Below are positions 7,157-29,317 of a DNA stretch of 33,896 bases, in pieces. The position numbers and the translations under genes were made by a program. Source of the DNA: a virus; the IMG/VR virus record IMGVR_UViG_3300027733_000132, positions 1 through 33,896 of that record. The stretch is one strand, 5' to 3'. How positions within the stretch are numbered: the first letter of the stretch is position 1; each line of letters begins with the position of its first letter. Below the pieces are notes generated by a model. The model did no database searches, was not told the DNA's origin, and saw nothing but the letters and a program-made list of their open reading frames with translations.

Positions 7157-8167
7157 TTATACTGTTTCACTTTCTTTTTCCTCAAACAAGCTGAAATCTC
7201 CATCAGCCCCAATAATCTCTTTCCAATACTCAGCATTTTCTTTCTTGTATTGTTCAATAGATACTTTCTCTTCTGCAGCGTCTTTTCCTGCCAAGAATCC
7301 GTGTGGTGTTACGATGATTTTTCCATCCTCATATCCCAAACCATTGATGTGGTTTTTCATAACAGAAACTTTTGTACGGATTGCAAACTTAACAGTTCGT
7401 TTGTCTTTGGTTGCTGAAATTTTGTTTGTTCCAGCACCTTTTTGATTACCGAATAAGAATACCAAAGATGAGTTTAACCAAATTGCTTCACCACCTTTTG
7501 CTTTAATCTTTGGTTGTCCAAATGGATTGTCAGGAAGTTCAACCCAAGGCTGATTAACAATAACCAATGTGTTTTCATATTTTGAATCAGATTTACGAGA
7601 ACCTGAAATACGTTGGTTGATACCCATTCCAATCTTGTCGGCAAGAACCGCAGCGTTGTGTTGTTTACCACCTTTACCTTCGTAAGTCATCTTACAAGGA
7701 ACCGAACCTACTGAATCCCAAAGGAACAATAAATCATATTCCAATTCACCTTTTTCTTGAGCGTCCAACAAACTATTAATATAATCTGTAATTTGTTCAA
7801 TGTAAGAGAAGTTGTTATTGAAGATGAAGAATCCATCCCAATCTAACTCTCCTGTTTCGGGGTCAACTACTTCGTCACAATCAAAACCCATAAGTCTTGC
7901 GTGTTCAAAACTCCATTTCTGTTCGGTGATGATGAACACGGGAAGGATATTTTGTTTCTGAGCTGATACGGCCGCTTTTACAAGAGCCGTTGTCTTACCT
8001 GTATCAGAGTGACCCAAAAACATGTTCAAGTGTCCTATGGCGGGTCCTGGTAGTCCTACAGCGTCCAAGAAATCTTTACCCAAGTCAAAGTATCTTTGTG
8101 GTTTATACTTCGCCGAAGTTGAGAATTTCTTCTTTACTGAATTAAAATCGTTTTTCTTGATTGCCAT
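7157..8167 (-). CDS. uvsX: RecA/UvsX-like recombinase
   Basis: The protein should form filaments on ssDNA and drive strand exchange, which in T4-type phages feeds recombination-dependent replication. The 336-residue length is close to that of RecA/UvsX proteins. Walker A is at residues 52-60 (GHSDTGKTT). A conserved glutamate lies in IITEQKW (E82), at the position of the RecA catalytic glutamate. Walker B is at residues 146-152 (LLFLWDS). QRISGSRKS and TLVIVNQPW match the loop and sensor region. The N-terminus is basic and lysine-rich. The C-terminus is acidic (FSLFEEKESETV), as in many RecA proteins. It lies between the SSB and exonuclease genes, and its leader carries a strong inverted repeat. 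The start at 8167 has no Shine-Dalgarno sequence. Confidence 0.93.
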   Translation of the reverse strand: MAIKKNDFNSVKKKFSTSAKYKPQRYFDLGKDFLDAVGLPGPAIGHLNMFLGHSDTGKTTALVKAAVSAQKQNILPVFIITEQKWSFEHARLMGFDCDEVVDPETGELDWDGFFIFNNNFSYIEQITDYINSLLDAQEKGELEYDLLFLWDSVGSVPCKMTYEGKGGKQHNAAVLADKIGMGINQRISGSRKSDSKYENTLVIVNQPWVELPDNPFGQPKIKAKGGEAIWLNSSLVFLFGNQKGAGTNKISATKDKRTVKFAIRTKVSVMKNHINGLGYEDGKIIVTPHGFLAGKDAAEEKVSIEQYKKENAEYWKEIIGADGDFSLFEEKESETV

Positions 8168-8182
8168 ATGTGTTGTAAATTA

Positions 8183-8218
8183 ATCATGTATGGTACCATA
8201 CAAGATACCATACATGAT
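8183..8218. repeat. Perfect 13-bp inverted repeat between SSB and uvsX genes
   Basis: The arms ATCATGTATGGTA (8183-8195) and TACCATACATGAT (8206-8218) are perfectly complementary across a 10-nt spacer. A second, nested palindrome TATGGTACCATA (8190-8201) competes with the large hairpin. It fills most of the 62-nt gap between the SSB stop and the uvsX start. No U-tract follows it in the minus-strand direction, so it is not a typical terminator for this operon. An operator, an mRNA hairpin controlling uvsX translation, or a processing site are the plausible roles. Confidence 0.7.
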
Positions 8219-8229
8219 GTTTTGTTTTA

Positions 8230-9078
8230 TTAGAATGGTAAGTCCTCAGCAGGTTCGTCAAATAATTGTGGGTCTGCAGGAGCCGCAGGTGCTGATTTAG
8301 AACCACCCATCATCATATCTCCTGAATCACTATACAAGTATTTACCTGTCTCATTATCCCAACGAGGTTCTTCACCACGAGAGATTGCTTCCAAATATTC
8401 TACAGGTTTCTTAGAGTAAACATCATTCCATGTCAACTCATCAGCCAACCACTCTTCCATGACATTAGCAGTCTCGTGAAGAGGTGCTGGGTCATCATGC
8501 ATAATAGTTTGGATTGTTGTGTAATCTTTTCCACCAGGAGTTTTAGATTTAACCAACTGTACAATAAGGTCTCTACCTTTTTGTGAATCAGTTACATCAC
8601 CTTTCTGTCTCCAAATTGGAATGATTTTGTCAAGAATACCATCATTCTTGTAATTGTGTTTGAAACGCCAAAACTTTACACCCTCGTCTTCAGCATCACG
8701 GTCAATAACCTTTACGATGTAAAATTTACGAGATTTATATTGTTTAGCTAATTCTTTGTCTGACTCTTTGCCGGTAGACATCAACTCATCGTGAACCTCA
8801 TTCAAAGGTGAACGCTCATTGTCATTTTTACCTGGGTCATAGAATTTTTGCCATTTACCACCCACTTGTAATTCATGGTACCAAACCTCTTTGAAAGGTG
8901 AAGAACCATCGGGTGTAGGAAGGATACGTACTCTACGTTGTCCTTGAGATTGCCCTTGTGGAAGAATACAAGCAAAATACTTTTTCATTCTTTCCTCTTG
9001 GGACATTCGGTTAGAGTCTCCGAAAGACTGTGTGTTTTTTTCGTACTGTGAAAGTACTGCGTCAAGTGAACTCATCAT
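8230..9078 (-). CDS. Single-stranded DNA-binding protein, T4 gp32-like
   Basis: This 282-residue protein resembles gp32-type SSBs. It has a short N-terminal arm, a KYFACILPQGQSQGQRRVRI strand region, and an OB-fold core rich in aromatic and basic residues (VWYHELQVGGKWQKFYDPGK, KFWRFKHNYKND). A WLADELTWNDVY segment follows. I do not see the cysteine/histidine zinc site of T4 gp32. The last part is an A/P/G-rich linker ending LFDEPAEDLPF. This acidic tip with terminal Pro-Phe looks like the C-terminal tip of cellular SSB, which recruits partner proteins. ATG 9078 (MMSSLDAV) or the next codon may be used. It starts the replication operon after a terminator and is followed by uvsX. Confidence 0.85.
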   Translation of the reverse strand: MMSSLDAVLSQYEKNTQSFGDSNRMSQEERMKKYFACILPQGQSQGQRRVRILPTPDGSSPFKEVWYHELQVGGKWQKFYDPGKNDNERSPLNEVHDELMSTGKESDKELAKQYKSRKFYIVKVIDRDAEDEGVKFWRFKHNYKNDGILDKIIPIWRQKGDVTDSQKGRDLIVQLVKSKTPGGKDYTTIQTIMHDDPAPLHETANVMEEWLADELTWNDVYSKKPVEYLEAISRGEEPRWDNETGKYLYSDSGDMMMGGSKSAPAAPADPQLFDEPAEDLPF

Positions 9079-21875: not shown

Positions 21876-23726
21876 TTAAATCTTATTTGGTACTAATCCG
21901 TAATTTCCATTCATTTTAGATTCAGAAATAATTCTAGCGAGTTCTTTTCTAAAATTTTCGTTTTTAAATATCTCACTAATTTGTGAGTCAGTTAAAGATT
22001 GTGTTGTTCCATTTGGTGTTGTTACTTTAATATCTATAGTACCTTTATGTTCCAAAGGATTGAATTCTATCTTTTGATTATTTTGTGTAATATTTCCAGT
22101 TTCAATTGTTGGTTTCTTAGTAACGTCAGTTCCTGATAAGAATGATTTCGCCTTATCAGCCAAACTACTTAATCCTGTTACTGCGGCACTTGCGGCTTCA
22201 GCTATTTTATTTCCCGATGAAATGTATGGTTTAGATGCCTCAGTATCAAAGTTATTAAATGCTTTGGTTATATTTTTTAACCCTTCACCCATATCCATTC
22301 CCGCTGTTTTAAACACATTTGCAACGTCTTCTAAACCACCTTTTCCTGAAATTAAATCTGTTAAACCTTTACCTGTTTTTTCATAAAGTTGGTCAATACC
22401 CGCAATACCACCACGTGTGTTTCCAACAGCTCTCTCTGAAGTTGCTTGTCCTGATGCTAACGCACCTCTTAATACTTCTCTTAAATCCTGTGGGGCTCTT
22501 GACCCAGCAACAGGTGCTGCAAGTCTATCTCTAATTTGTTCTTGTACCGCAGTTGAGTATTGTGCTTCAGTAAGTTGACTTTTAGCCAAATCTTCTAAAG
22601 TAACAGGTTTTTGTGATTCTTTTAACTCATCAATATCTTTACTATTAATTTCAGTTACAAGTTTTTCATCTCTACCAATCTTAACCGTAAATCCACCTTT
22701 TTGTTTGTTGTATTGAGCAACATTAGCAACAAATTGTTTTGTTTCTTCATCAACACCGGCAATTTTTAAATCTTTAGATATTAAATTTAATTTTTGAGTC
22801 CCTTCAGACATTTTAATTAAATCATTGTAGGCAATACCTGTTGCTTTTTCAATTTCTCTTAAATCACGTTTAGCATTTGGGAAAACTTTAAACTCTTTTG
22901 TTTTTTCGTCAAAGTATGTAAACTTTTGAGTCATTTTAACAACTTGGTTTTGAAGTTCTTCAGTATCTTCAGAAGCCAAATACATTAATCTAAAAGGGTC
23001 TGCTAAATCACCAGCGGCGACTCCCATTCTTTGGAAAGCAGCTACAGTGTCAATAGCACCTTCAGGGTCAAATACTTTTTCAGCAAAATTAAATACCGAA
23101 TTCATATCAATACGTAATCCTGCCGCCTGTGCCGCCATCTTAGCTAAACCAGCAACACCATTTTCAAAACCGTATTTATTAATTGAATCTAAATTATTAC
23201 TAACCAACTTAAACACTGCACCAGTATTAACACCAACTTGTCGTGCTAAGTTAACAGTTGTTTGGATATTGTCTTTAATATTTCCTGTTTGGATTCCAAC
23301 ATCTTGGAATGATTTAACCATTTCTCCAACTCCAGCGGAAGATACACCAACAGCTTTTCCGGCAGCGTATAAATCTGTTACGGTCTCACCTAATGTAATA
23401 ACATTTGTTTGAAGTGATTCGGCAATACTTTCTTGTATTGCCGCAACATCTCTAAAATTACCACCCAAACCAACTACACCAGGTGTGGCAATTGCAATTT
23501 CCTCTCTTAATCCTTTTATTGCTGATTGAGTTTGTCCAAACGTCCCAGAAATTGTCGCAGTGAATTGGGAGTATTGGTCTTCTAATTCAACGGTTCTTTG
23601 TTGCCAACCATCATAAGCATCATCAACAATTTTACTTAATTTTTTTACAACGTCTCCAACAGAATTAATACTATTAGATATTCCTGACGTATTTGGTGCG
23701 TTTGGATTTGGTGGAGTTTGTTGCAT
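21876..23726 (-). CDS. Tail tape measure protein
   Basis: The 616-residue protein is helical, A/G/S-rich and lies directly after the tail chaperone genes, the standard tape measure position. The N-terminal 100 residues look coiled-coil (DVVKKLSKIVDDAYDGWQQR). Central repeats of tape-measure type follow: VTDLYAAGKAVGVSSAGVGE, TVNLARQVGVNTGAVFKLV, VAAFQRMGVAAGDLADPFRL. A later part contains GGIAGIDQLYEKTGKGL and the Ala-rich IAEAASAAVTGLSSLADKAK. At the usual 0.15 nm per residue it predicts a tail near 92 nm, close to T4, whose gp29 is 590 residues. The C-terminal 100 residues are polar (PNGTTQSLTDSQISEIF) and may bind the baseplate hub. The ATG at 23726 has a TATTTAT element 6 nt upstream. Confidence 0.85.
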   Translation of the reverse strand: MQQTPPNPNAPNTSGISNSINSVGDVVKKLSKIVDDAYDGWQQRTVELEDQYSQFTATISGTFGQTQSAIKGLREEIAIATPGVVGLGGNFRDVAAIQESIAESLQTNVITLGETVTDLYAAGKAVGVSSAGVGEMVKSFQDVGIQTGNIKDNIQTTVNLARQVGVNTGAVFKLVSNNLDSINKYGFENGVAGLAKMAAQAAGLRIDMNSVFNFAEKVFDPEGAIDTVAAFQRMGVAAGDLADPFRLMYLASEDTEELQNQVVKMTQKFTYFDEKTKEFKVFPNAKRDLREIEKATGIAYNDLIKMSEGTQKLNLISKDLKIAGVDEETKQFVANVAQYNKQKGGFTVKIGRDEKLVTEINSKDIDELKESQKPVTLEDLAKSQLTEAQYSTAVQEQIRDRLAAPVAGSRAPQDLREVLRGALASGQATSERAVGNTRGGIAGIDQLYEKTGKGLTDLISGKGGLEDVANVFKTAGMDMGEGLKNITKAFNNFDTEASKPYISSGNKIAEAASAAVTGLSSLADKAKSFLSGTDVTKKPTIETGNITQNNQKIEFNPLEHKGTIDIKVTTPNGTTQSLTDSQISEIFKNENFRKELARIISESKMNGNYGLVPNKI

Positions 23727-23745: not shown

Positions 23746-23931
23746 TTAAGTATTTTTTATTCCCTCAATTATTTTATCTATCAAATACCTACGAGCATAT
23801 GTAGGCATTTTCATAAAATCAGTCCAAGATGTGTGTAAATTTTTTGCTAAAACGAAATATTCGTCTAACTGATAGGAGGCGTAATCAGAAGAAAACGCGA
23901 AAAAACTCAACCCCAAAGGCGATTTCAACAT
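23746..23931 (-). CDS. Tail assembly chaperone extension in the +1 frame (likely frameshift product)
   Basis: The 61-codon frame overlaps the last 47 nt of the gp26-like gene and lies in its +1 frame. Its unique part reads FSSDYASYQLDEYFVLAKNL then HTSWTDFMKMPTYARRYLID. In most long-tailed phages the gene between tube and tape measure makes a short chaperone and a frameshifted long form (lambda G/GT). The layout here is the same. A slippery UUU-UUU-C lies in the overlap. Independent initiation at ATG 23931 is possible; AAGG lies 4-7 nt upstream and an in-frame TAG immediately precedes that ATG. If frameshifted at the slippery site, the fused protein is about 299 residues and ends with 51 residues from this frame. 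It probably binds the tape measure during tail assembly. Confidence 0.7.
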   Translation of the reverse strand: MLKSPLGLSFFAFSSDYASYQLDEYFVLAKNLHTSWTDFMKMPTYARRYLIDKIIEGIKNT

Positions 23932-24634
23932 CTACCTTGTTTCCTGACGGGGCTATAATTGTTCTTCTTAAATCCAATCGTGGTTCATTTTCATCAATAA
24001 AGTTTCTGATAAATTTTGAATCCATTATGGGTAATCCTTCTACAAATCTATTAATAGTACCTTGTTCACTATCACCTTCAACACTAATAATCTGTTTTTG
24101 AAGTTTCCAAGTTACTTTTGGTGCCACTCTACCAGTTGGATATTGGTCAGCCAATTTGTTAATTTCACCAATTTCTTTAAAAGTCAAAGGTTTTACTTTA
24201 ACAGTAGCATTTGATTTTGGTAATTTAATTGTAAAACTACCGTCTTCATTTGGGTCTTGGGAAGGTTTTCTAAAATCCAACTCATCCAACATGATTTCAG
24301 TAGAAAACTTTTTTCCTGTCTCGGGGTCAATACTTGAAATTTTGTATTCGGGTCCGAATGATGTGTTTCTTAAAAAAATCAAAATGGCTTCAATATCACC
24401 ATTTAACATTTCATCGGGTCTCAAATCTGGTTCATACAACTTGGAACGTACCAATGTCATAACCAAATCATCAGGGTTAACCGACATGATTACATTCTCA
24501 TCAGCAGCGGTTAGATAACCAACCTTAACAGATTTTTTCTTTGATTTATAAAACTTACCTTCTGAAGGTAGTTTTACCACATCGTGTGGTAAGTTAAAAT
24601 CTTGTTGACCATATTTTAATACATTTTCGTCCAT
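23885..24634 (-). CDS. Baseplate hub/tail assembly chaperone, T4 gp26-like
   Basis: The protein resembles the gp26/gp51 family of T4-type tail assembly proteins. The N-terminal signature is VVKLPSEGKFYKSKKKSVKV then GYLTAADENVIMS, that is, a short PSxGxFY strand followed by a TAxDE helix. An NTSFGPEYKI segment and a C-terminal region ending AFGVEFFRVFF follow. I chose ATG 24634 (MDENVLKYGQQ, 249 residues) because a longer reading from GTG 24646 starts inside a terminator hairpin and would translate its U-tract as Phe-Phe-Phe. It lies between the tail tube and tape measure genes, where the tail chaperone normally sits. Its 3' end overlaps a +1-frame extension with a slippery UUU-UUU-C. The product is probably an assembly factor rather than a major virion part. 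Confidence 0.82.
   Translation of the reverse strand: MDENVLKYGQQDFNLPHDVVKLPSEGKFYKSKKKSVKVGYLTAADENVIMSVNPDDLVMTLVRSKLYEPDLRPDEMLNGDIEAILIFLRNTSFGPEYKISSIDPETGKKFSTEIMLDELDFRKPSQDPNEDGSFTIKLPKSNATVKVKPLTFKEIGEINKLADQYPTGRVAPKVTWKLQKQIISVEGDSEQGTINRFVEGLPIMDSKFIRNFIDENEPRLDLRRTIIAPSGNKVDVEIAFGVEFFRVFF
23897..23908 (-). other. Candidate +1 programmed ribosomal frameshift site
   Basis: The zero-frame codons are GAG-UUU-UUU-CGC. A P-site tRNA-Phe on the second UUU can slip forward to UUC, improving its pairing. Reading then continues GCG-UUU-UCU-UCU-GAU in the extension frame. The site lies three codons before the zero-frame UGA (23885-23887). The UUU-CGC context resembles the +1 site UCC-UUU-CGU of influenza PA-X. 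Confidence 0.55.
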
Positions 24635-24665
24635 AAAAAAAAACACAGGGATTAGACCCTGTGTT
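24635..24665 (-). terminator. Strong rho-independent terminator after the tail tube gene
   Basis: In the minus-strand RNA, AACACAGGG (24665-24657) pairs perfectly with CCCUGUGUU (24650-24642) across UCUAAU. A run of nine U (24643-24635) follows, its first two residues belonging to the stem. The U-tract ends directly against the AUG of the gp26-like gene (24634). It probably sets high tube but low chaperone expression, by partial read-through. Confidence 0.9.
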
Positions 24666-24713: not shown

Positions 24714-25202
24714 TTAGTAAACCAAAATACAACGGTCCATTTGTAATGTAACGTCCAATCCTGCTAATTTGTCATCACTATATGATACGTTATCCCAAGC
24801 GGATTTTGTAATCATACATCCCTCAAGAATCCATTTTTCCACAACAACACCTGTTGGGTCTAACATCTCAAGGTCAACATTCTTTTTATAACCCGCAGCA
24901 TATCCCATACGACCTGTAACTGATTCAGCGTGTAAACGAACCCACTCCATAAGAGCTTGTGTTGCTGATGGACCAATTGGGTCACGGAATTTAACTGAGA
25001 TGGCATTCCATTTGAATCTACCTGCTACAAATGTAGAAGTGTTCAAAAATTGTATCTCAACAGGGTTAATATCAATACTTGGTCTTCCTGATGATTCTAC
25101 GAACCATTCATTAATACCTAAACTTGTGTCAAACCTTAGTATAAATCGGTTCGCTCTTTTTGGTTCGTAAGGAACCGGCATTTTCATTAATAAATCAGCC
25201 AT
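24714..25202 (-). CDS. gp19: Tail tube protein, T4 gp19-like
   Basis: This 162-residue protein equals T4 gp19 in length (163 aa). It shows the tube pattern PVPYEPKRANRFILRFDT at the start, then NTSTFVAGRFKWNAISVKFR, PIGPSATQALMEWVRLHAES, YKKNVDLEMLDPTGVVVEKW and LEGCMITKSAWD. It forms the hexameric inner tube inside the sheath, around the tape measure. The ATG is at 25202. The leader is A-rich and about 100 nt long, with TATTTAT elements in both directions, and a strong terminator follows the gene. This pairing suggests an abundant short transcript. The HAD-like gene lies upstream and the chaperone downstream. Confidence 0.93.
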   Translation of the reverse strand: MADLLMKMPVPYEPKRANRFILRFDTSLGINEWFVESSGRPSIDINPVEIQFLNTSTFVAGRFKWNAISVKFRDPIGPSATQALMEWVRLHAESVTGRMGYAAGYKKNVDLEMLDPTGVVVEKWILEGCMITKSAWDNVSYSDDKLAGLDVTLQMDRCILVY

Positions 25203-25303: not shown

Positions 25304-26140
25304 TTAGTATCTAGTTTTAGCTCCTTTACCAGTATAGTAGTTCTTTAACATTGGTTCATCTTCAAAACTCTTCTTCATTACTTCTACATTCTTTAAATCA
25401 TCATCTGAAAAGCCAATACTAGGAACAAATTTATTTTTTACATCATTTTTAAGATATAATTTTTTACCTAAACTTTTGGCTTGTGATTTTACATAAGAAA
25501 TAAATTCCCTCATTGCGTCTACTTTTAATTGTTCGGGATTTCCGGCACCTGTTGGGTCCAAAAAACTAACGGGATAATATTTGTTCATGTCAAGATAGTC
25601 TTTAATTAATTCCATGTCTGACTTGTCCTCCATACCTGAAATGTCCCTGTATTTTCTAAGATTCTTTAATAATAAGTTTTTATTAATACCCTGATGGTCG
25701 GATATAATCAAATTGTATATTGCGTCTTTAATAGTTTCGGGGTTGTGACCACGAGCTGTAATAATTGAAAAAATTGACCCGTTATTAATTGCTTCTATAA
25801 AATCAGACCAAGCGGGACCTGTTTTTGCCTTCATTGCATCAATTTTAAATTGTTTGTCACCACCTTCTCTAAAATTTCTATAAGGTTGGTCGGCGTATCC
25901 AACAATTTTGTTTCCTTTGTAATCAAATTCTTCTTTACCTATTTGATGTCTATGTTCAGCAAAATCTTCTGTGGACATTGGTACTTCATTATCATTTTCA
26001 TCTCTTAAGATAATTTTTGTTGGCATGTACATTAAGTTGTCATCCCAATCAAATGCGTAGTACTTTAAGTCTGGCGTACCAGCATCATCAAAACCTTCAC
26101 GTAATGATGATACTGGATTATTTTTTTTGTTTTTCAACAT
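25304..26140 (-). CDS. HAD-superfamily phosphatase-like protein inside the tail operon
   Basis: The 278-residue protein carries the HAD motifs. Motif I is DWDDN at residues 31-35 (D31 nucleophile, D33 acid/base). Motif II is TARG (T128). A lysine near 206 (PEQLKVDAM) may be motif III. Motif IV is GFSDDD with D246-D248. HAD enzymes mostly hydrolyse phosphate esters; the substrate here is unknown. A cap-like stretch of about 90 residues separates motifs I and II. The N-terminus is basic, with no signal peptide. It starts 6 nt after the sheath gene's stop, so it is co-translated with the sheath. T4 has no such gene at this point between genes 18 and 19. Candidate roles are modification of a virion or host component, or nucleotide salvage; none is shown by the sequence. 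Confidence 0.82.
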   Translation of the reverse strand: MLKNKKNNPVSSLREGFDDAGTPDLKYYAFDWDDNLMYMPTKIILRDENDNEVPMSTEDFAEHRHQIGKEEFDYKGNKIVGYADQPYRNFREGGDKQFKIDAMKAKTGPAWSDFIEAINNGSIFSIITARGHNPETIKDAIYNLIISDHQGINKNLLLKNLRKYRDISGMEDKSDMELIKDYLDMNKYYPVSFLDPTGAGNPEQLKVDAMREFISYVKSQAKSLGKKLYLKNDVKNKFVPSIGFSDDDLKNVEVMKKSFEDEPMLKNYYTGKGAKTRY

Positions 26141-26146
26141 AAATTA

Positions 26147-29100
26147 TTAAATGTTTTCAAACGAAGCTCCTGTTGGAGTGATTAAGAATTCAATGTCAAT
26201 GAATTCCAACGCTTTTGTTGGTTTCAAATAAATCTTACCTGTCATAGTATTTCTATCTAAATCTTCAGGTGAATTACTTACAGTAACACGGAAATCATAT
26301 AAACCTCTGTCTCTTCTGATAGCATCCAAGATAGGGTTAACCGAATCCAAGAAGTCTTGTCTTACTTTAGCGTCGTTTTGTTCAAACAACAATCTTACAG
26401 CCACCGCTGAAATTAACTTACGAGCTTGTAACAACAATCTTCTTACGTTGATTCTGTTAAGTGCTGTGTCAGCAATTTGAAGAGTTTTGTTACCCCAAAT
26501 TACAGTTCCAACATCAGAGAATGTTGCAATAGGATTAATTCTACCTTGATACAAAGTATCTCTATCTTCTTGTGTAAGTTTCTTACGAGCTTTAATAGCA
26601 TTTACTAAACCTCTTGTGTAACCCGCAGTTGCGAACCAAGGGAATGATACGTTATCTGTCAAAGCTAAGTTTCTACAAACTTCATTTGTTGGTGGTAAGT
26701 AGATTTGTGTGTTATTAACAGTATCCCTAACCAAAATCCAAGGGTAGTAAGTTGCTGTATAGTTAGAGTCAATACCTGTGTTAGCCAAATTATCAACAGC
26801 TTCTGTTGGGTAAATAAAGTTGCCTGTATTTGTTGGAAGATATACATTACAATCAGGTGTTGTACAAATGTAGATAGAATCTGCTCTATTGTAAGTAACC
26901 ATTGAAATTGAATCTTCAACCAAGTTTGAGTTATTAGTATAATCAATACCAGGTGTTGCAAACACATTTATGTTTACCGCTTCAGGGTTATTAAATGTAT
27001 AGATACCTAACAAGTAAGCGTAGTAATCAGTATTTGCAAAATCAGTAAAGTTACCAATATTGATTGGTTTGAAAGCCCCCCAACCTGTTGCGTTTGGATA
27101 TCTTGTTGTTGGACATGCTCCTTTTTGGTAACCTGTTCCACCCAACATAAATTCATCTTTGTTTGTTCTATATTCACGATAAATGTCCCAACCATCAAAA
27201 CCATTTTGTAATAAGAAAGTGAATTTTCTTGCTTGTATTTGGTAATAAGGGTTTGCAGGTGTTTCAGGGTCAGTTTGGAATGAAGCATCACCACAGAAGA
27301 ACGCTGGTGTTCCTGAAGTAGGACCATAAGCGATTGTTACTACAGTTGCTCCTGAATCCATGTGAAAACCTTTTGTGATATAATCCCAAGGTAATCCTTC
27401 ACTTGACTCATCACAATATTGTGCTGCCGCTTGTCTACCTTTATATTCATAGAACGCTGGGTCATAACCAATTTGAGAAGAAATTCCCAAATATGTTGTT
27501 CTTACTCTATCACCAGAACTAACCACAGGATTATCAAGACCAGCAGTTGTTCCAAATGGTGGGTTATAAATAACTTGTCCTGGGAAATTATACTCTGTTT
27601 TATAAATTGGGAATGGAGGTGTTGTAGTTAATCCATCATATTCTCTAATAACATAACCTTCAAATCCACAAGGAACTGATTCTATGTTAGCATCAACATT
27701 TAGTTCTAACATGATGTATTTTGAATTCAATGCGTATTCACCATCACTAGTTCCAATTTTAACACCTACATAACTGTTTGAACCTGGGTTCATTGTACAG
27801 TTTGTGTATTTCTCTAAGATTACAGGATTAGAATCTGTATCAAAGAAACTACGAACCGCCAAATCAAAACTTAAGTTAGCGAATGATATATTTGAAATTG
27901 AAACTTTAATTTGTGTGTTAGCACTGTTACCATCAGCTACTGAGTAAATTTTAAATAACTTATCAACAGTACTACCGAATAATTGAGATACAACCCAAGG
28001 TGATTCAGGTGATTTATATGGTTGTAAATAGTTAGCAATTGTTCCTGTTGGATTTGAGTATCTAACACCAGGTAATGCAACTAAATCAACATTGATACCT
28101 TTAATGTAACCTTTATTGTATGCGTAGTTTAATAAGTTAGGGAATGTTTCCTCAACAAATAATGGTACTTCATTTCTGTCTTTACCAAAATTAGTAACAC
28201 CAAACGCCTTTGTAATATAGTTTGAATCTGTAGTACTTAAAGATGTTGTGAATGAGAACGCATCTCCTGATGTTGTTAAACCTGAAATTGCAAATGGTGC
28301 GAATGGGTTTTGTGAAATTGCTGCGTAAGTTCCTGAATTATCAATAATAACATCAGTTAATCCTGATACTTTATAAACAGGTCCTGTACTTCCAGCACCA
28401 TATGTAGCAATACCTCTTGAACGGAAAGTAGCCGCAATTAAATTATTGTAATCTGTATAAGCAGTTCCTGTGTAGTTATAAAGTGTTCCCGAAACAGTAC
28501 CTGAGTATGCTCCTGAACCAAGACTAATCATTCTTGATATTACATTATAGAATGAATATCCTGTATAAGCATCTCCTGAAGTAATATCAAAGTTTGCATA
28601 ATACCAAGTGTCATTATTACCTGATGTAAAATCAGCGTCTGCTGTTGTTACACCTGATACACCATAAACGTTAGTTGATGCTGTATAAGCCGATAAACTT
28701 GGTGACGCTCCTGATGGTATAGTACCAAAATAATCAATTGTAAAACCTGAACCAACACCAGCAGCATTGATTATTGGTGATATTTGTGAGTCAAGGTCAT
28801 CTTGAAGAGTTGAAATACTACCATTAAATTGTGTATAATCTGTGTTAAGAGCATTTTGAATAATAGATGGAAATGAACTTGTAAAAGTAATACTTGTAGA
28901 ACCTGTAGTACCTGTCCAACCAACAGAATATACTGTTGAACTTCCATTTAATCCAACGGTTGTTGTATCAACATTGGCAATTGTGGTTATTGACCATGAC
29001 GGTCCTGCATCATACCCCGACAATCCCAATACTCTTGTAACGAATAATTGGTTAGACTGTTGAAGGTAGGATTTGGCGATGTACGCCAATTCATATTTAG

Positions 29101-29317
29101 GAATTTGTGTGTTTACAAATTTTTCTGGAATTGTACCCCCAAAATAAGACTCAAAGTCTGAGTAGTTAGTGATGAAAATAGGTTCAAAAGCTGGACCCAT
29201 TAATGTCTCACCAACAAGACCAAGTGTGGTTACCCCAACACTTTGTGCTACAAAACTAAGGTCTCTTTCAGATGTGTATACACCAGGAGAAACGAAAACT
29301 TTATTTGATACTGCCAT
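26147..29317 (-). CDS. gp18: Tail sheath protein, T4 gp18-like (1056 aa, enlarged)
   Basis: The N-terminus VFVSPGVYTSERDLSFVAQS then LGLVGETLMGPAFEPIFITN is the sheath hallmark. The C-terminal domain is also typical, with KTLQIADTALNRINVRRLLL, SVNPILDAIRRDRGLYDFRV and PTKALEFIDIEFLITPTGAS. These terminal segments form the linking arms and inner domain that bind the tube and power contraction. T4 gp18 has 659 residues. The extra roughly 400 lie mainly in residues 110-370, which are S/T/G/Y-rich and repetitive (GSGAYSGTVSGTLYNYTGTA), and probably form exposed outer domains. The ATG is at 29317, with both TATTTAT and TATAAATA in its leader. It follows the tail completion gene and precedes the HAD-like gene. 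Confidence 0.93.
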   Translation of the reverse strand: MAVSNKVFVSPGVYTSERDLSFVAQSVGVTTLGLVGETLMGPAFEPIFITNYSDFESYFGGTIPEKFVNTQIPKYELAYIAKSYLQQSNQLFVTRVLGLSGYDAGPSWSITTIANVDTTTVGLNGSSTVYSVGWTGTTGSTSITFTSSFPSIIQNALNTDYTQFNGSISTLQDDLDSQISPIINAAGVGSGFTIDYFGTIPSGASPSLSAYTASTNVYGVSGVTTADADFTSGNNDTWYYANFDITSGDAYTGYSFYNVISRMISLGSGAYSGTVSGTLYNYTGTAYTDYNNLIAATFRSRGIATYGAGSTGPVYKVSGLTDVIIDNSGTYAAISQNPFAPFAISGLTTSGDAFSFTTSLSTTDSNYITKAFGVTNFGKDRNEVPLFVEETFPNLLNYAYNKGYIKGINVDLVALPGVRYSNPTGTIANYLQPYKSPESPWVVSQLFGSTVDKLFKIYSVADGNSANTQIKVSISNISFANLSFDLAVRSFFDTDSNPVILEKYTNCTMNPGSNSYVGVKIGTSDGEYALNSKYIMLELNVDANIESVPCGFEGYVIREYDGLTTTPPFPIYKTEYNFPGQVIYNPPFGTTAGLDNPVVSSGDRVRTTYLGISSQIGYDPAFYEYKGRQAAAQYCDESSEGLPWDYITKGFHMDSGATVVTIAYGPTSGTPAFFCGDASFQTDPETPANPYYQIQARKFTFLLQNGFDGWDIYREYRTNKDEFMLGGTGYQKGACPTTRYPNATGWGAFKPINIGNFTDFANTDYYAYLLGIYTFNNPEAVNINVFATPGIDYTNNSNLVEDSISMVTYNRADSIYICTTPDCNVYLPTNTGNFIYPTEAVDNLANTGIDSNYTATYYPWILVRDTVNNTQIYLPPTNEVCRNLALTDNVSFPWFATAGYTRGLVNAIKARKKLTQEDRDTLYQGRINPIATFSDVGTVIWGNKTLQIADTALNRINVRRLLLQARKLISAVAVRLLFEQNDAKVRQDFLDSVNPILDAIRRDRGLYDFRVTVSNSPEDLDRNTMTGKIYLKPTKALEFIDIEFLITPTGASFENI

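Follow-up and report, generated by a model that had tools for sequence, protein, structure and literature searches.

A candidate +1 frameshift site with an upstream RNA hairpin in T4 gp26/gp51-like tail chaperone genes of environmental phages

Results

Organization of the tail chaperone locus

The window analysed here, namely the whole 33.9 kb (33,896 nucleotides) of the virus contig record IMGVR_UViG_3300027733_000132, is a genome fragment whose tail chaperone locus is read on the minus strand. The tail tube gene (24714..25202; PHROG_4542, 3.2e-26), the product of which is 43% identical to the tail tube of Microcystis phage Mel-JY01, lies upstream of a gp26-like ORF of 249 aa (23885..24634), which begins with ATG, has an alternative GTG at 24646 and ends with a UGA stop at 23885..23887. 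Downstream follows a 616-aa ORF (21876..23726), which is assigned to the tape-measure position by its location only and for which family searches gave no convincing match; phage immuto has the same order of tube, chaperone and tape-measure position, with an annotated tape measure. A second frame of 61 codons (23931-23746), shifted by +1 relative to the gp26-like ORF, overlaps it by 47 nt from its ATG to the zero-frame stop, and the part of this frame that would be read after a slip (23746..23898, with the stop codon at 23748-23746) is the putative T-like domain of a long chaperone. The ORFs and the matches to PF12322, PHROG_150 and PHROG_4542 agree with this arrangement of a gp26-like gene, tail tube, tape-measure position and 47-nt overlap as given in a preliminary description of the locus. 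Elsewhere in the window, a very long tail sheath protein (1056 aa; 26147-29317) has its sheath domains confined to the last third, a 278-aa protein with an FDWDDN motif and no Pfam match (25304-26140), which we assume may be HAD-like, is encoded between sheath and tube, and the window encodes, along with the tail genes, a gp32-like single-strand DNA-binding protein (8230-9078; PF08804, 1e-12).

Assignment of the products to the T4 gp26/gp51 family

The gp26-like ORF matched PF12322 at 5.3e-9 with 36.5 bits, above the curated cut-off of 24.5, and PHROG_150 at 3.3e-14 over positions 10-234 of the 282 in the profile. The end points on PHROG_150 were then compared: T4 gp26 reached position 235 and T4 gp51 position 280, the zero frame of the window reached 234 and the predicted fusion 269, so that the extension covers the part of the profile that is reached by T4 gp51 but not by gp26. 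Because these end points coincide, PHROG_150 places the short product as the counterpart of T4 gp26 and the predicted fusion as that of T4 gp51. All 53 of 53 fusions matched PHROG_150, with a small gain for the window on adding the extension (54.0 to 55.5 bits), and when the fusion was aligned directly to T4 gp51 by hhalign, the match was weak and ran end-to-end only with a broad alignment (E 0.0012). An AlphaFold model of the short form had a pLDDT of 87; in Foldseek searches it matched its SP-15 homologue with a TM of 0.84 and Aeromonas gp26 at 4.7e-6, and the sole high-probability PDB match was the HK97 tail assembly chaperone 2ob9, a weak one (prob 0.80, TM 0.49 of the target, E 0.41). The products presumably act as tail assembly chaperones. 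In T4 the short and long forms come from separate genes, whereas one gene plus a +1 frame was found here, and the window record, being a fragment, contained a single match to the T4 gp26/gp51 family. T4 gp26 itself (7803-8429 of the T4 locus, L121) ends in EFFELL (GAG TTC TTT GAG), close to the EFF slip-site peptide of the present family, and this end may be what remains of a frameshift site that has since been lost.

The proposed slip site and the conservation of the extension

The junction reads GAG TTT TTT CGC GTT TTC TTC TGA. Its elements are a first UUU (23903..23905), which would be in the E site at the slip, the slip codon, a second UUU (23900..23902) that could re-pair as UUC in the +1 frame, and the rare A-site Arg codon CGC (23897..23899), and the predicted fusion reads GVEFF-AFSSDYASYQLDEYF across the junction. 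GAG-UUU-UUU-CGC does lie in the overlap, as had been described, but its distance to the stop had been given as three codons, and four sense codons in fact separate the slip codon from the UGA, which lies outside the slip signal and is missing at this place in some relatives.

A protein search returned 35 loci with 53-100% identity, a profile search gave at least 587 loci, of which 80 were kept, and a search of GTDB genomes found no relative. About 180 relatives retained the overlap. In all relatives that reach the junction, except one, the zero frame ends around GVEFFR and the open +1 frame starts with FF[AGVE], and with an open +1 extension kept in all of them, the pattern is far beyond chance. 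The exception, L005 (IMGVR_UViG_3300008113_007988), is a rearranged contig in which the extension runs into other sequence: after HTSWS it gives way to sequence like the start of the next gene, by deletion or misassembly. Among the clade members examined none had the two frames fused in-frame or separated by a gap, and UUU_C was kept in every one.

Next, the codons at the junction were assessed by a codon-neutral search, in which the peptide FG(V/A)EFFRxF(F/Y) was fixed and the synonymous bases were left free, so that the answer was not preselected. All 80 of 80 returned loci were family members, five of them recognised via the extension and not via the N-terminal motif test. The slip codon was TTT in 80/80 of these matches and in 106/106 sequence clusters, with C as the next base in all, the first UUU was TTT in 77/80 and TTC in 3/80, and the combination of a UUU slip codon with CGN next, as in influenza PA-X, was found in 80/80. 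The likeness to PA-X that had been proposed for the site holds also in its rare Arg codon, and in Streptococcus phage GXN1 the site even reads UUC_UUU_CGU.

The Arg codon departs strongly from usage in these genes. AGR, which makes up 81% of their Arg codons, never occurred at the slip site, and CGC and CGG accounted for 65/76 (86%) there vs 1.6% of the Arg codons elsewhere; in the large ORFs of the window, CGG accounted for 0/331 Arg codons and CGC for 1.2%. This rarity suggests that CGN would be decoded slowly. With AGR in the A site the +1 frame would still be possible, but UUA instead of UUC would lie under the tRNA. In the +1 frame the codon that follows the slip encodes Gly or Ala in most cases, so that selection on the +1-frame protein could partly explain the use of CGG and CGC over CGU and CGA, but not that of CGN over AGR.

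The extension also behaves as coding sequence. Past the point where the zero frame terminates, no stops interrupt the +1 frame, and the other two frames average 3.9 and 5.2; the median dN/dS of the extension was 0.14, which shows that it is under purifying selection. One alternative is a small gene of its own, translated without any frameshift from the internal ATG (23931) or after reinitiation; in its favour, some lineages, including the window, carry an ATG in the overlap in the +1 frame with AGGA ~10 nt upstream. However, the internal ATG is missing in 71/106 clusters, 11/106 have no ATG, GTG or TTG in the extension frame ahead of the stretch that is conserved, and in 10/106 the +1 frame opens only three codons before the slip. 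Because so many clusters lack the ATG or any start codon, separate initiation cannot be general. The residues FF[AGVE][FL]SS[DN]Y are, moreover, conserved from the slip onward, and Shine-Dalgarno sequences are almost absent from the window's genes (2/19 loose matches), so that we regard an independently initiated gene as highly improbable.

The comparison instead supports the slip from UUU to UUC into the extension frame, with a predicted fusion product, that had been put forward in the preliminary description. Two other events would reach the same frame at the run of six T. A -2 ribosomal shift, which would add one extra Phe, is permitted by the U6 of the window and would fit the retention of the first UUU in 77/80 loci, but -2 re-pairing is impossible in lineages that nevertheless keep the extension: those with UUC_UUU_CGN (the three codon-neutral loci with TTC; L204 and L233 are among such lineages), phage GXN1, LR756508 (AAC_UUU_CUA) and UUU_CUA members of the immuto clade. 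Transcriptional slippage on the six T before C, giving a mixed mRNA population, meets the same difficulty, as the run is short and TTCTTTC lineages keep the extension; it would, in addition, select neither a rare Arg codon nor an upstream RNA hairpin. Since the extension is kept in the UUC-UUU-CGN lineages, both -2 slippage and poly-T transcriptional slippage are ruled out there, and for the family we consider the former very unlikely and the latter close to negligible.

An RNA hairpin upstream of the slip site

Synonymous constraint was found upstream of the slip, in a single-frame region without dual coding, where three codons were fixed among the clusters: GCC in 85/86, GGA in 104/105 (background GGA 36%) and GGG in 104/106. 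The positions fold into a two-helix hairpin. Helix 1 pairs GCCCCG (23948..23953; columns 1-6 of alignment A2) with UGGGGU (23910..23915; columns 39-44), the latter ending 7 nt before the slip codon, and 96.9% of its cells were paired; helix 2 pairs AAGGUAGAU (23930..23938; columns 16-24) with AUCGCCUU (23916..23923; columns 31-38). The conserved bulge UCAGGA (23942..23947), which holds the GGA codon, lies inside the hairpin. The Gly codon of helix 1 was GGG in 76/76 sequences vs 8% elsewhere in these genes, and the C of the conserved GCC codon stands opposite its G in the stem.

Pairing was evaluated over 118 ungapped sequences, a set that includes related sequences and from members of which the structure itself was derived: 82.2% of the cells paired, double-change cells numbered 103 vs 41 in shuffles (0/500), and pairing dropped to ≤55% when the partner strand was slid. 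Under a null of synonymous-codon shuffling, helix 1 paired in 98.3% of cells vs a maximum of 84.3%, helix 2 in 84.5% vs a maximum of 81.5%, and the folding energy (MFE) was -14.5 vs -8.0 kcal/mol. At pair 3:42 of helix 1, 112 distinct sequences comprised C-G in 98, A-U in seven, G-U in two and an unpaired state in five, the last of which counts against the hairpin model. The exchange of C-G for A-U occurred at least twice on the tree, once nested in C-G lineages (L215 and L314 beside L099) and again in a second clade. Only two of the 106 clusters lacked the C opposite GGG, and the G was missing from both as well (Fisher p 1.8e-4). When sequences with GGH in place of GGG were sought directly, further outliers were obtained, most of which have A or G for that C opposite U. 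In helix 2 both-side changes were seen at 18:36 (31 cells), 19:35 (18), 22:33 (35) and 20:34 (6). Taken as comparative evidence, these data indicate that the RNA hairpin is conserved beyond the coding constraint, with compensatory changes. A shifted register of helix 2 gave fewer pairs and was rejected, and RNAalifold found no structure downstream of the slip.

The synonymous positions of the bulge UCAGGA and its neighbours were near-invariant in the 106 clusters. The motif is similar to the core of a Shine-Dalgarno sequence, and pairing with UUCUUCUGA is also conceivable, but compensation supports neither reading. A pseudoknot of UCAGGAGAA in the bulge with UUCUUCUGA at the zero-frame end is doubtful: many cells pair, but compensation is absent and UAA or displaced stops break the pairing.

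The conservation and position of the hairpin, together with synthetic precedent, suggest that it stimulates the +1 shift; in synthetic tests with 70S ribosomes, hairpins placed upstream and close to the E site stimulate +1 shifting and mimic an internal Shine-Dalgarno sequence (PMC6321510). The same +1 shift might alternatively be stimulated by GGGG as an internal Shine-Dalgarno sequence, as in prfB, and not as a hairpin strand, given that GGGGU can pair with the anti-Shine-Dalgarno 8 nt before the slip codon and that GGG is near-invariant. This explanation leaves unpredicted the conserved upstream CCCC, its joint loss with GGGG and the C-G to A-U exchange, and the spacing in prfB is much shorter. 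The anti-Shine-Dalgarno is also occluded in Bacteroidia (PMC8710568), and the host here is probably a member of the Bacteroidota, for which the near-absence of Shine-Dalgarno sequences is as expected. We therefore judge the internal Shine-Dalgarno rather unlikely and retain the hairpin as the probable stimulator. The preliminary description included neither the upstream hairpin nor the rarity of CGN, nor the correspondence to T4 gp26 and gp51 as a short and a long chaperone encoded separately.

Related extensions and the direction of the shift

A +1 extension after the same gene was also found in phages immuto, SP-15, GXN1, LR756508 and Mel-JY01, and in 79 immuto-like contigs, in which TTT is followed by CTT, CTA or TTT. 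In the immuto clade an upstream hairpin was not established, with only a suggestive Pro-x-Gly pairing that is largely forced by the codons. Small hypothetical proteins are annotated separately in immuto (4863-4973 of L117), SP-15 (4740-4859 of L118) and Mel-JY01 (5471-5707 of L365); they are in frame with the +1 extension and end exactly with it, and are probably misannotated chaperone tails. XacN1 (L363), LR756511 (L364) and L123 carry a -1 extension at the same place, with U-rich or UUC-repeat sites. Since the extension is +1 in some members and -1 in these three, the direction of the shift varies inside the family.

Discussion

Comparison shows how the two frames relate, that the slip codon is conserved, that the Arg codon next to it is rare, that selection acts on the extension and that the RNA is structured. 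On these grounds we propose that programmed +1 ribosomal frameshifting, favoured by a hairpin, lets a single gene produce both tail assembly chaperones, the short TAC-N and the long TAC-NC, a reading to which we give a probability of roughly 0.86. The ribosome would read GAG UUU UUU and pause with peptidyl-tRNA(Phe) on the second UUU and the rare CGN codon next, and the tRNA(Phe) may then shift one base forward onto UUC. The majority of ribosomes would not slip and would terminate a few codons on, giving the gp26-like short form, whereas slipped ribosomes would append ~50 residues, the putative counterpart of the C-terminal part of T4 gp51; we infer that a fusion protein is produced in this way. 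The hairpin (GCCCCG.../...UGGGGU plus the inner stem) would refold once its 3′ strand emerges from the ribosome, thereby favouring +1 movement of the mRNA. A point against this model is that only 7 nt separate the hairpin from the P codon, so that some of helix 1 has to be open when the slip occurs.

We lean towards a wider view, in which a natural, conserved hairpin behind the ribosome drives the +1 shift and replaces the Shine-Dalgarno stimulator in hosts that do not rely on Shine-Dalgarno sequences, and in which the T4 chaperone family has moved between +1 shifting, -1 shifting and gene duplication to obtain the same two products. The T4 chaperone family, thought to be frameshift-free, itself appears to rely on frameshifting in uncultured phages that number in the hundreds, and also in cultured phages whose annotation either lists the extension as a tiny unknown protein or omits it. 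The slip-site motif can be used to correct such annotations, and the precise +1 signal of UUU_CGN, rare Arg codon and upstream hairpin lends itself to base-by-base testing.

According to a review of recoding (PMC5009743), long-tailed phages share the tail chaperone frameshift, T4 being the exception. A new version of this known phage device appears to exist in T4-related phages from the environment, which form a large group. A passage of PMC10885494, citing Vladimirov 2022, states that T4-like phages make the short and long chaperones from separate genes. Another, in PMC12846349, credits Vladimirov et al. 2022 with poly-T signals for -1 shifting in the TAC genes of T4-like phages, and because of that citation some frameshifting in the T4-like TAC family has probably already been described there. 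The present products share the PF12322 and PHROG_150 family with T4 gp26/gp51, the short form ending as gp26 does and the fusion continuing like gp51, but T4 encodes both forms separately and here a single gene is combined with a frameshift. With lambda G/GT the locus shares the position between the tube and the tape-measure position and an overlapping second frame conserved as a C-terminal extension; lambda, however, shifts by -1, whereas the shift here would be +1 at UUU_CGN, with an upstream hairpin and a protein of the T4 gp26/gp51 family. In the haloarchaeal myovirus HSTV-2, which has an archaeal host, the tail chaperone shift is described as very likely +1 (PMC5009743).

Bacterial prfB likewise combines a forward shift with an upstream duplex, but relies on CUU_UGA, where the stop is RF2-limited, and on a Shine-Dalgarno sequence close by, whereas a sense codon and an mRNA hairpin are found here, with CGN in the A site and the stop several codons on and displaced in several relatives. 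Influenza A PA-X (UCC_UUU_CGU) resembles the site in the P-site change from UUU to UUC and in the presumably slow CGN in the A site; PA-X has no evident stimulator (PMC5009743), whereas the present site would be read by a bacterial ribosome and has a conserved hairpin upstream of it. A non-exhaustive literature search found no natural upstream hairpin that stimulates +1 shifting. Synthetic refolding hairpins upstream of the slip (PMC6321510, PMC3639245) similarly favour +1 on 70S ribosomes, but they are parts of engineered reporters and abut the E site, whereas the element described here is natural, evolutionarily conserved and separated from the P codon by 7 nt. The locus appears to be nature's equivalent of these engineered hairpins, which push the ribosome forward from upstream.
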